A stretch of DNA of 35,741 nucleotides, taken from positions 1-35,741 of IMG/VR virus record IMGVR_UViG_3300034375_000958, one strand, 5' to 3'. A model generated the notes under the pieces. The model did no database searches. It had not been told where the DNA came from and worked only from the letters and a program-made list of their open reading frames with translations. Source of the DNA: a virus. The position numbers and the translations under genes were made by a program. This document shows positions 3,437 through 35,741 of this stretch, one piece after another. Numbering within the stretch: position 1 is the stretch's first letter; each line of letters opens with the position of its first letter.

Positions 3437-4342
3437 TTATTTAATTCCATATACAGAAATTCTACCTGTAGTATAAATATAAGAACTTCCTTGAAAAAAT
3501 CTTATACCAGTAACTTCTGTTGTACTTTGATTGCAATAGTGCAAACTTTCATTTGCAAAATAAGGTACATTTCCATAAAGACCACCTACAATTTGACTAT
3601 GTAAAGCTGTCATTACACCTGATTGAGCTCCAGTAATTACAGCATCAAAACCGCCTTGACCAGCACCACCAGCCCAACTTGAATGACCACCACCCCAAGC
3701 TCCAACAGTCATATAAGTTCTGTTTTGGTCGTAGTCTGCTGTGTTATTACTCCAAACAGCATTCCATTCTCTATATGCACCTATTTTAACATAACCATAA
3801 TTTCCGCTTAAATCTGAACCTGATGCACCACCAGTTCTAAAATAAGCCTCACAAGTAGTTGTATTGTTTGGTTTAGAGGATATTCCTGATGCAATTACTT
3901 TATAACTTGAATAAGTTGAATAATCAAAAATATTATCAAAAGTTACACCATTTCCATTAGTTACAGCAAAATCGTGTTCTGCAATTTTAACAAAGTCACT
4001 AGACAAATTAGTCCAACTAGGATTTGCACCAGCTCCGCCACTTTGTAATACTTGTCCTGCTGTACCTGCACCAAGTCTTTGAAGACCTGAACCATCACGA
4101 TAAACTAAATCGCCTTGAGTTGTTAATGTTGTTGTAAGATCAGTACCATTTGTGCCGTTTGTTCCAGCAGATGACATCTGATCCCAATATGTATTGTTAG
4201 TAGGTAAGTTGCCTGTAGATGCTAACTTACAAATGTAGCTTGATCCATTGTAAGATACAACGTCATCAACAGCATAAGCTGTTCCACCTGCGTATGCACC
4301 TTGCCAATTAAATTTTATATTTCCTAGATTTATTGTTGCCAT
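3437..4342 (-). CDS. Tail fibre protein with carbohydrate-binding-like N-terminus
   Basis: A 301-residue protein with AAAGGAG before ATG. Residues about 11-57 (FNWQGAYAGGTAYAVDDVVS ... YWDQMS) resemble the small chitin/carbohydrate-binding-like modules of phage fibres. A short collagen-like GTNGTNG follows at about 60-66. A linker (GDLVYRDGSGLQRLGAGTAG) precedes a beta-rich C-terminal domain from about 115 that ends in RFFQGSS ... GRISVYGIK, a closing pattern common in phage fibre tips. It is probably a minor fibre or receptor-binding subunit. The region before the gene carries an ACGCACATTAAA motif at the stop of the upstream gene. Confidence 0.85.
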   Translation of the reverse strand: MATINLGNIKFNWQGAYAGGTAYAVDDVVSYNGSSYICKLASTGNLPTNNTYWDQMSSAGTNGTNGTDLTTTLTTQGDLVYRDGSGLQRLGAGTAGQVLQSGGAGANPSWTNLSSDFVKIAEHDFAVTNGNGVTFDNIFDYSTYSSYKVIASGISSKPNNTTTCEAYFRTGGASGSDLSGNYGYVKIGAYREWNAVWSNNTADYDQNRTYMTVGAWGGGHSSWAGGAGQGGFDAVITGAQSGVMTALHSQIVGGLYGNVPYFANESLHYCNQSTTEVTGIRFFQGSSYIYTTGRISVYGIK

Positions 4343-24276: not shown

Positions 24277-24657
24277 TCACGATAGATCTATATTAATTTT
24301 AATATCCCCTTGAATATTGTGAGCTACCTTATCTGGTGCTCTTAAACCTACACGATCTAGTATATCTCTACTAGCTTCTAGTTGAACGTACTCTGATCTT
24401 GCTCCGTTTGAGAGTTCGATAAGTTTCCTACTTGCACTTACTGCCCCAAGTCCTAGAGTTTGTGCTATCCTTGATTGCATATAACTCTGTACCTTTGGTA
24501 ATCGTAGTGTGCGAGATGCACTTACTCTCCCAGCATCTCCTTTACCTTTACTTGAATATCCTGCCTTTTCTGCTGCTTCCTTAATAGAACACCCTGTTGC
24601 TACGATAGTATCAACGAGCATCTTTTGTTTGTTTGTTAGATCATCCATACTACACAA
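24277..24657 (-). CDS. terS: Terminase small subunit
   Basis: Up to 126 residues. The N-terminal part is a helix-turn-helix (LTNKQKMLVDTIVATGCSIK, EAAEKAGYSSKG), followed by VSASRTLRLPKVQSYMQSRI and a C-terminal RDILDRVGLRAPDKVAH, the pattern of TerS DNA-binding subunits. It would recognise viral DNA and deliver it to TerL. A TTG start at 24657 has AAGGGAAG 8 bases upstream; the ATG at 24648 is an alternative with a longer spacing. It is the first late gene after the divergent promoter region. Confidence 0.88.
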   Translation of the reverse strand: MCSMDDLTNKQKMLVDTIVATGCSIKEAAEKAGYSSKGKGDAGRVSASRTLRLPKVQSYMQSRIAQTLGLGAVSASRKLIELSNGARSEYVQLEASRDILDRVGLRAPDKVAHNIQGDIKINIDLS

Positions 24658-24678: not shown

Positions 24679-24738
24679 TACGTAGGGTTTTATTTTGTTA
24701 CTGTCAAGCAAAATAACAGCACTTTAGTGGTGTGTCAA
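24679..24738 (-). promoter_or_regulatory. Tandem sigma70-like promoters for late operon, with inverted repeat
   Basis: On the minus strand TTGACA (24738-24733) is followed after 17 bases by TATTTT (24715-24710). A second TTGACA (24707-24702) is followed after 17 bases by the weaker TACGTA. The two -35 boxes are 31 bases apart, about three helical turns. Between the first pair lies CACTTTAGTG, an inverted repeat that could be an operator. They would drive terS and the late genes with host polymerase; no phage polymerase gene is seen. Confidence 0.55.
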
Positions 24739-24746
24739 ACTCACAA

Positions 24747-24756
24747 TACTATATAT
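24747..24756 (+). promoter_or_regulatory. Possible early promoter -10 region
   Basis: TACTATATAT on the plus strand, with start expected a few bases downstream, immediately before the first strong hairpin of the structured leader. The -35 region (around 24724-24732) is a poor match, so it may need an activator, or the site may be wrong. It faces the late promoters and shares the same short divergent gap. Confidence 0.35.
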
Positions 24757-25086
24757 GGAATCTTCTCGCCAAATGCAGGAAGCATTTGTCTGCGAGGATG
24801 CCCCCATAAGTGTTTCGCCCTTTGATTTAGACAAAGGTGCGAACCAGTCGTAATCACATAAGTAGGATGTAGATTACTCCTTACACTGATGGGTCCCCTC
24901 CCACACACGTGAGTAAGCGAGTGTAACAAGGAATCCCCTCAACCTGTAAACAGGGCGAATTGTCCACGAGGAACAATTACGCCGCAGGGGGTAAACCCCT
25001 GCCAAGCTGTTGACAGGTCAAGGACTCCCCTTGTTCACTGTACGCTACCACGTGATGTGGGTTACGTTAATCATAAACAAAGGAGG
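24757..25086 (+). ncRNA. Long structured leader / noncoding RNA upstream of early genes
   Basis: About 330 bases with no credible gene and much higher GC than the surroundings, packed with stems: CTCGC-CAAATGC/GCATTTG-GCGAG (24765-24796); CCCAT-A-AGTGT/ACACT-G-ATGGG (24803-24813 with 24883-24893) enclosing CGC-CCTTTG/CAAAGG-GCG (24816-24841) and GTAATC-ACAT/ATGT-GATTAC (24850-24877); GGCG-AATTGTCC/GGAACAATT-CGCC (about 24954-24984); GCAGGGG/CCCCTGC (24984-25002); CAAGG/CCTTG (25019-25033); CCAC/GTGG (25048-25060). ACACT can instead pair with AGTGT at 24920, and ACCTGT (24942) with ACAGGT (25013). It ends in the AGGAGG site of the first early gene. Strand and function are inferred. Confidence 0.65.
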
Positions 25087-25090
25087 TTAT

Positions 25091-25261
25091 ATGGATTACG
25101 TTAAGTACTATGAGTTAGTTGTTGATGAAACTAACAAGATGAGAGTTAATGAGTTGTTGACTCTTAAAGATGAAGCTATCTGTAAAGGTGATAGAGATAA
25201 AGTTGCTGAAATAGATAGTGAGTTAAATAATATAACTAATGGAGGAATATATGTTAGCTAG
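25091..25261 (+). CDS. First early protein, small and acidic, unknown
   Basis: A 56-residue protein. The ATG at 25091 has AGGAGG four bases upstream; an in-frame TTG at 25010 inside the structured leader is much less likely. The sequence (MDYVKYYELVVDETNKMRVN, then ELLTLKDEAICKGDRDKVAE) is a helical, charged protein without recognisable family. It overlaps the next gene by 11 bases. As the first gene behind the early leader it could be a host take-over factor, by position only. Confidence 0.8.
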   Translation: MDYVKYYELVVDETNKMRVNELLTLKDEAICKGDRDKVAEIDSELNNITNGGIYVS

Positions 25262-25751
25262 TGAACTAAGAGAAAGAGATTATTCTGATAATCGTGTATA
25301 TGAAATGCAAGATGTATTAGATACTGCTGAAATAGATAATGCTATGAGAGCATTTTTTCAGGGTATTATAATGCCTTTTGCAGATTCAAATGATTGGGTT
25401 AGAATTGCTGAATGGAATTGTAATTCAATCTATGGTGCATTTGCAAGACATCTAGACGCTTGTAAGAACTCATTGGATAAAACAATGGGTAAGTTAAAAC
25501 AAGCATATAGATCAGATACAGGCACAGAAATATCCACACAAGAAATTGATAAGTGGTTATTTACTAGAAATGTTCAGGAATTGAATATTAAGCGTGCTGA
25601 GAAAATATTAGATGCTTTCAAATTACAGTTTGAAAATGCTTTCGGTCAAAAGTTTGTACCGCCAAGCAAATCATCTAGTAAAAATGTATCATCAGAGGAG
25701 CTTAAGAAATATAATATTGAAAGACTTAAACAAGCTCTTGGTGAAAAGTAA
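25251..25751 (+). CDS. Early protein of unknown function
   Basis: A 166-residue protein. The ATG at 25251 has GGAGG five bases upstream, whereas an earlier ATG at 25239 precedes that site and is less likely. Mostly helical with two Trp-containing segments (DSNDWVRIAEWNCNSIYGAF) and a charged C-terminus with a Ser-rich linker (PPSKSSSKNVSSEELKKY). No family recognised. With the 56-residue gene it forms a short unit between the structured leader and a strong terminator, which suggests immediate-early expression. Confidence 0.82.
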   Translation: MLASELRERDYSDNRVYEMQDVLDTAEIDNAMRAFFQGIIMPFADSNDWVRIAEWNCNSIYGAFARHLDACKNSLDKTMGKLKQAYRSDTGTEISTQEIDKWLFTRNVQELNIKRAEKILDAFKLQFENAFGQKFVPPSKSSSKNVSSEELKKYNIERLKQALGEK

Positions 25752-25760
25752 TTAAAATTA

Positions 25761-25794
25761 AGCCCTGTTGTCTTCGGACAATGGGGCTTTTTTT
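25761..25794 (+). terminator. Intrinsic terminator with UUCG tetraloop
   Basis: A 12-bp stem (AGCCCTGTTGTC with GACAATGGGGCT, including two G-U pairs that form only in plus-strand RNA) closes a TTCG loop and is followed by seven T residues. It lies 10 bases after the 166-residue early gene and ends the first early unit. Confidence 0.92.
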
Positions 25795-25807
25795 ATCGCT
25801 AGGGACT

Positions 25808-25862
25808 GAATTTTTCAGGTTCGGCGTTGGAAAATTCATAAGTGTTGCTGCCGAAATTCACT
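25808..25862 (+). promoter_or_regulatory. Predicted H-type RNA pseudoknot in 5' leader
   Basis: Stem 1 is GAATTTTTC (25808-25816) with GGAAAATTC (25829-25837), 9 bp including one U-G pair specific to plus-strand RNA. Its loop holds TTCGGC (25820-25825), which is complementary to GCCGAA at 25850-25855. The connecting loops are 3, 3 and 12 bases, workable for a classical H-type fold. A short AGTG/CACT pair (25841, 25859) may add a third helix. It lies between a terminator and the ribosome site of the gene at 25888. Riboswitch, translational operator or stability element are all possible. Confidence 0.55.
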
Positions 25863-35125: not shown

Positions 35126-35364
35126 TTAAAAGAAAAAAAACCAATAACAGCAGTTGCTAGAGAACCTATAAAAACTAATGCTGCTACTATTCCTTTTCCT
35201 TTTGATACTGAATCTTTTAATTCAGCTACTTCTTTTCTTAATTCGTCAATAGACTTAATAAGAGTTTTCATTCTTTCAGCACAAATTTTTTCGTGCGAAG
35301 AAAGTCTAATACCTAATGATTGTTGTGCAATATTAGTTACAGTAGCTGATTTTCTTTTTTTCAT
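35122..35364 (-). CDS. Coiled-coil membrane protein, lysis-associated
   Basis: An 80-residue protein. A basic N-terminus (MKKRKSATVTN), a segment SLGIRLSSHEKICAERMKTL, a coiled-coil helix (SIDELRKEVAELKDSVSKGK) and a C-terminal membrane span (IVAALVFIGSLATAVIGFF). This coiled coil plus C-terminal span resembles XhlA-type proteins near phage lysis genes. It probably works with the holin and endolysin. Start overlaps the upstream stop by one base (TAATG). Confidence 0.78.
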   Translation of the reverse strand: MKKRKSATVTNIAQQSLGIRLSSHEKICAERMKTLIKSIDELRKEVAELKDSVSKGKGIVAALVFIGSLATAVIGFFSFK

Positions 35365-35516: not shown

Positions 35517-35741
35517 TTACTCCTTTGTTATTAATTCCCAATTTTGTATTGTTTCATTCCACTTATAATCTTGACCATCATTAGGATATGCAACAGGTGC
35601 TTCCCAAAGACAAGTATCTTCGTTTAGAATCCAGCTATTAAAATGTTTAGGTGGAATAAATGCGTCTCTTGCTTGGTCATATTTATAACCAATACCAGCA
35701 AAGTTTTTTCTAATTGTACTATTGTATGAAGTTTGTTTCCA
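35517..35741 (-). CDS. Fibre-associated small protein, C-terminal fragment cut by window edge
   Basis: Reading leftward from the right edge, 74 residues remain: WKQTSYNSTIRKNFAGIG, then FNSWILNEDTCLWEAPVAYP and KWNETIQNWELITKE. This matches residues 44-114 of the protein at 1447-1791. Together with the 18-codon start at 1-54, it would be one gene lacking about 25 codons compared with the paralogue. The frame is kept across the junction. The missing part may be absent from the assembly or truly deleted. Confidence 0.85.
   Translation of the reverse strand, partial: WKQTSYNSTIRKNFAGIGYKYDQARDAFIPPKHFNSWILNEDTCLWEAPVAYPNDGQDYKWNETIQNWELITKE

Follow-up and report, generated by a model that had tools for sequence, protein, structure and literature searches.

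A modular structured leader RNA beside terS is swapped as a cassette between near-identical putative SAR11 phages

The put RNAs are conserved in sequence, bind the zinc-binding domain of beta' and suppress termination. The lambda nut site consists of a short boxA plus boxB, and N and nut vary together, while the phi29 pRNA is a phage packaging RNA of a few hundred nucleotides at most. HK022 put is about 70 nt long with two stem-loops, and the leader RNA alone can modify the polymerase (PMC9378689). In GOLLD, the 3' part is conserved and the 5' part is variable (PMC12286853). The locus described here can be compared with each of these systems. Like HK022 putL and putR, it is a structured phage early-leader RNA near a promoter and upstream of terminator(s), with a host-only partner in the model proposed below; unlike put, it measures 180-500 nt, combines three-way junctions with a rod, is variable and undergoes cassette exchange. 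Lambda nut/N has a similar layout, in which a promoter, an RNA element and small early gene(s) precede a terminator and the remaining early genes. As a large modular structured phage RNA it resembles GOLLD and ROOL, but it is an mRNA leader beside terS, is swapped between near-identical phages and has no Rfam match. It is a phage RNA like phi29 pRNA and adjoins terminase genes here, but it is an early leader that would be transcribed away from terS, and it again lacks an Rfam match. We know of no precedent for such an RNA family or for its cassette exchange between near-identical phages, and we found no report of a structured pelagiphage RNA in the literature searched, most subscription papers lying outside the reach of that search.

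The window, by which we mean the whole stretch of DNA analysed, is a 35.7-kb IMG/VR virus record (35,741 nt). Since its TerL shares 67% identity with the TerL of EXVC031P Hodr, a Pelagibacter phage that infects HTCC1062, the assignment to a SAR11 phage made in a first-pass annotation of this DNA is reasonable. Hodr is the sole named phage close by TerL, and a DNA search for named phages gave no match. Near both contig ends, at 1447-1791 and 35517-35741 (both minus strand), lies a pair of small, closely similar proteins (WKQTSYN..., FNSWILNEDTC.WEAP), which may reflect duplication of a tail-region gene or a point of genome closure nearby. The leader sits in a 434-nt gap with terS (minus strand) on one side and g1 (plus strand) on the other, terS and the leader unit being divergent. 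Local G+C is 0.50 compared with about 0.30-0.43 in the flanks, and the ORF list holds no credible protein in the leader region; on both points the annotation had described the stretch correctly. The features of the locus are as follows.

24277-24657, minus strand: terS.
24702-24756, plus strand: putative promoter/operator block, ACTTTAGT-N8-AAACTCACA..ACTAxAT, from 42 distinct homologous rows.
24747-24752, plus strand: -10-like TACTAT.
24757-25065, plus strand: structured leader RNA (the exchanged cassette), from fold z-score, covariation and whole-cassette exchange.
24765-24796, plus strand: 5' hairpin module (CTCGC/GCGAG and CAAATGC/GCATTTG), from sequence and minimum free energy (MFE).
24803-24893, plus strand: three-way junction with stems 24803-24813/24883-24893, 24814-24824/24832-24843 and 24850-24859/24867-24877, from covariation and a covariance model.
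24900-25061, plus strand: 3' rod, form A, from covariation and P1 complementarity.
24900-24911/25049-25061, plus strand: P1 of the rod, holding the nearly invariant ACACACG.
24920-24931/25029-25039, plus strand: P2 of the rod.
24932-24936 (AAUCC)/25024-25028 (ACUCC), plus strand: symmetric internal loop of the rod.
24949-25011, plus strand: apical three-way junction of the rod.
25091-25261, plus strand: g1, an ORF of 56 aa with its ATG at 25091.
25239-25751, plus strand: g2, 170 aa, predicted all-helical, motif Y..xxGxxYxP.
25760-25794, plus strand: intrinsic terminator behind g2, with a 13-bp stem, a UUCG loop and a U tract (hairpin -18.7 kcal/mol).
25795-25860, plus strand: second conserved element, ATCGcTA...TTCGGCGTTG...GTTGCTGCCGAA, directly behind the terminator.

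The leader locus is a modular structured region with conserved pairing, about 310 nt long in this phage, situated between terS and g1. A 339-nt plus-strand sequence folded at -136.7 kcal/mol, compared with -92.5 +/- 5.2 kcal/mol for shuffles (z = -8.6), and when 890 segments of 160 nt were scored over both strands of the whole window, the top fold z-score (-7.9) was at 24881-25040 on the plus strand. The second-strongest score, -6.7, belonged to 35201-35360 on the minus strand, within a coding region. Homologues were gathered via TerL, g2 and two DNA patterns; the alignment of the 3' domain comprised 15 distinct sequences and that of the three-way junction 10. Compensatory changes were present in 14 of the 45 pairs of the 3' rod and in 7 of the 29 pairs of the junction. 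Within the 3' domain, 96.7% of cells were paired; shuffles gave 86.0 +/- 0.9%, and sliding the partner gave 43% at most. The covariation score was 0.262 versus 0.083; the bare count of compensatory pairs was less striking, with 14 attained by 37 of 500 shuffles. For the junction, 99.0% of cells were paired and none of 500 shuffles had as many as 7 compensatory pairs. A covariance model of the junction matched this locus only, across 70 sources (0.62 Mb) made up of the window, relatives and unrelated contigs, and the same model found shortened versions in other cassettes (E 1e-4 to 0.3). The fold scores and the homologues thus bear out the earlier proposal of a compact structured RNA at the head of the early genes, for which compensatory base changes had been named as the check. 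Specifically, the proposed 10-bp stem with one mismatch, CCCATAAGTGT at 24803-24813 with ACACTGATGGG at 24883-24893, is present, encloses two hairpins and forms a covarying three-way junction. The suggestion that some strands have switch-like alternative partners did not hold, since the alternatives showed no covariation and were not conserved in relatives. Each strand has one conserved partner: ACACT at 24883 covaries with AGTGT at 24809, AGTG at 24920 covaries with CACT at 25036 (AGAC/GTCT in L010), and relatives, which have CCTAT, no longer form the local CCTGT/ACAGG alternative but retain the long-range pair.

The junction and the rod are separated by GGGUCCCC, and other modules stand in place of the 5' hairpin module in relatives. 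P1 complementarity was preserved in nearly all forms compared, even those with unrelated content (the L182 row was left out of this comparison). The RNA proper stops near 25065, and 25066-25090 is an AU-rich linker that holds the g1 Shine-Dalgarno sequence. Upstream, ACTTTAGT and AAACTCACA of the promoter block are nearly invariant and unlike a plain sigma-70 -35 box; on the minus strand of 24702-24756, CTTGACA resembles the -35 of a divergent terS promoter.

Fold energy was dropped as a test of strand, since the minus strand folds equally well (mean z -6.7 versus -5.8 for plus). The comparison of G-U with A-C wobbles on pairs predicted on both strands gave no signal (5 versus 4), and a wobble count of 24:4 was set aside as biased by the fold used. 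Loop orientation was one-sided. On the plus strand of the cassettes we counted 59 C(UUCG)G loops (10 distinct contexts) and 92 loops of the sequence C(UAAA)G (16 contexts), with none of either on the other strand. Together with the promoter-like block upstream and the Shine-Dalgarno sequence at the 3' end, this orientation supports reading the leader as a plus-strand RNA that would be the first part transcribed from the early promoter; transcription of the leader is what we infer from these signals.

One or more markers of the RNA were found in 82 of 97 distinct IMG/VR sequences upstream of terS, and the leader ranges from about 180 to 500 nt among relatives. Form B, a different rod at the same place with the internal loop UUUGC/CUUUGC, is carried by 37 contigs; other phages have alternative 5' modules, such as GGCGACUUACAGGCUCUAG...GAUCCUGGUCGC, and some have extra inserted hairpin domains. 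Hodr (L097) has a structured leader at the same spot, about 3600-3835 on the minus strand of L097 (z = -4.7), without clear sequence similarity. In the cassettes of L034, L043, L045, L235, L241, L245 and L063, we noted two recurrent hairpins: stem-UCCnnnGGUC-stem (e.g. GCAGC-UCCUAUGGUC-GCUGC), which occurs in inserted domains as well as in the leader of the distant L063, and NN-UCGCUGUUGCUC-N'N', whose closing pairs covary.

Comparison of closely related phages revealed how these forms replace one another. Contigs with 97-99% identity over up to 12.6 kb differed in the leader cassette only, TerS, g1 and g2 being at least 95% identical, and the exchanged stretch ran from the transcription start to the ribosome-binding site, with boundaries near those signals. 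In L020 and L038, for instance, identity is 98.5% across 9.0 kb upstream and 97.4% across 3.5 kb downstream, and BLAST found no similar stretch in the segment that runs from +96 (the -10 region) almost to the g1 start. The same pattern holds for L010 and L245, whose sequences agree at 99.4% across 3 kb downstream. Between L095 and L091 most of the difference lies in the 3' domain (form A versus form B), the identities being 100% for TerS, 98% for the 5' domain, 100% for g1 and 99% for g2. In 70 close pairs, defined by identities of at least 95% for each of TerS, g1 and g2, RNA identity was bimodal: it was about 97% or higher in 57 pairs and under 80% in the other 13, and every pair kept at least 88% identity in the promoter block. 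By our reading of the sequences, the 13 divergent pairs would amount to about four independent exchanges. Chimeric assembly is unlikely to account for them, since the forms recur in several independent samples. Replacement is all-or-none, of a whole cassette or a whole domain, between near-identical phages. Since TerS (99-100% identical even where the cassettes are unrelated), g1 and g2 stay constant as the cassettes change, a variant-specific partner is unlikely to be found among them, and the RNA probably has a host component as its partner or else acts on the transcript that it belongs to. The unchanged g2 contradicts the candidate of g2 as the variant-specific RNA partner.

None of the Rfam 15 covariance models, which include GOLLD, ROOL, OLE, pRNA, 6S, introns and riboswitches, reached its gathering score; a permissive setting gave just two chance-level matches in the window leader (E 8-10), and a scan of the relatives' leaders returned no family. 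The window holds no tRNA genes. The first-pass annotation had recognised no RNA class here, which agrees with these searches of both the window and its relatives. At about 310 nt and with several domains, the leader is set apart from put by its described structure, while its placement in an early leader upstream of terminators is put-like. A nut boxA (CGCTCTTA / TGCTCTTTAACA) beside a boxB was not found, the best matches being 6/8 and 8/12 at places that are not conserved, and the joint change of protein and site seen with N and nut is absent, g1 and g2 keeping 95% identity or more where the cassettes are unrelated. Likewise, a packaging site or pRNA co-varying with the terminase is contradicted by the near-identity of TerS. 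Comparison with type III toxin-antitoxin systems gave no tandem repeat when the RNA was read by eye, and g2 has no Pfam or PHROG counterpart. The leader RNA is a new family, and its likeness to put is offered as a hypothesis and not as membership.

Our best guess at its function, which we hold tentatively, is that a cis-acting RNA together with a host factor lets the host polymerase pass the terminator behind g2. The leader would fold on the nascent early transcript and act in cis with a host partner, most likely the host RNA polymerase, as an elongation or antitermination leader, and the polymerase would then pass the strong terminator and proceed into the remaining early genes. We rank this reading first because of the lambda pL-nutL-N-tL1 and HK022 pL-putL layout, the put precedent and the spacing of ribosome-binding sites behind the terminator. 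The terminator lies directly 3' of g2 in 44 of 46 distinct relatives, which fits the put-like antiterminator that the annotation had listed among possible roles, beside host-polymerase binding and regulation of the two genes, and beyond it follow about 22 closely packed plus-strand ORFs with only one further plus-strand terminator-like site, at the end of the ORF region. In many relatives the next ribosome-binding site lies 65-95 nt past the terminator with a conserved element between, which suggests read-through. The conserved promoter block upstream and the g1 Shine-Dalgarno sequence downstream also agree with cis antitermination. However, antitermination does not require a size of 180-500 nt or such high variability, and read-through would be unnecessary in Hodr and some relatives, where promoter-like TTGACA/TATAAT sequences follow the unit. 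A consensus promoter scan behind the terminator was uninformative, since the leader promoter itself scores no better. The second conserved element follows the terminator with ATCG in most relatives, where it was aligned as ATCGcTA...UUCGGCGUUG...GUUGCUGCCGAA (alignment A2). It is possibly an H-type pseudoknot, its nested fold without a pseudoknot did not exceed shuffles, and it looks like a recombination junction, since the genes behind it differ between relatives.

Since the RNA is a swappable cassette, a diversifying role in trans is a serious rival, possible though on the doubtful side. A putative trans-acting RNA, made first on infection and serving for example in counter-defence, would bind or block a host component (polymerase, RNase, ribosome or defence system), and the terminator would simply end an autonomous unit, as the unit in Hodr and some relatives appears to be. 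Its leading position in the early transcript, the constant scaffold (P1, ACACACG) with variable modules and the repeated all-or-none exchanges agree with this role, the modules being swapped and diversified like hypervariable, first-expressed counter-defence protein genes; the exchange pattern fits it nearly as well as cis antitermination. Against it, the RNA would be co-transcribed with mRNA, as there is no terminator or processing site between it and g1; it resembles no host RNA family in Rfam, and a form-B 21-mer had no exact match in the host genomes (genome_contigs). A narrower version, which we consider unlikely, makes the leader an RNA analogue of a hypervariable counter-defence gene, with the ACACACG closing helix as constant scaffold and swappable modules that each fit a host target. 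If true, pelagiphages would adapt through swapping RNAs instead of proteins.

More improbable still is a role in cis on the g1-g2 mRNA, as its regulator or stabiliser, through protection of the 5' end, control of translation or g2 autoregulation. The leader stands directly before the g1 Shine-Dalgarno sequence, but that sequence lies in the unstructured AU-rich linker outside the RNA. Neither g1 nor g2 matched PHROG or Pfam; the predicted structure of g2 is all-helical (mean pLDDT 84), and a fold search with this model gave no confident match. Proteins resembling g2 weakly, with the motif Y..xxGxxYxP, also follow such leaders after terS in divergent clades and Hodr; the g2 profile matched them with E 1e-6 to 0.03, values that are optimistic since the search space held just 12 candidates. 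These proteins, including that at 3141-3584 of L097 (Hodr), appear as a widespread family of small all-helical early proteins without a database match. In a profile search g2 weakly matched WHEP, an RNA-binding domain of aminoacyl-tRNA synthetases (E 0.012-0.05). This would favour such a cis role, but it is a lead only, supported neither by Pfam (E 2.3) nor by the fold search, and g2 stays constant across replacements of the RNA. Very improbable, finally, is a DNA element with hairpins that function as DNA, such as a replication origin, a packaging site or a hot spot of recombination. In its favour, the locus adjoins terS, is clearly an exchange hot spot and has a minus strand that folds as well, with a neutral wobble test. 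Against it, the constancy of TerS excludes a TerS recognition site from the swapped part, the UUCG and UAAA loops are confined to one strand, and the exchange boundaries lie near the transcription start and Shine-Dalgarno sequence.

SAR11 are the commonest bacteria of the ocean, and few viruses on Earth are as abundant as their phages. A leader that is large, first in the early transcript, spread over a large clade and the sole part replaced between near-identical phages implies strong selection on RNA structure itself. What is new is the RNA family and its evolution; if antitermination proves right, the mechanism would be a further version of a kind already known. The natural leader variants with constant neighbours are a ready-made swap experiment, and since a different structured RNA occupies the same place in a cultured phage of HTCC1062, bench work on the locus is possible. 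The leader is thereby a testable handle on how pelagiphages take over or evade their streamlined host.
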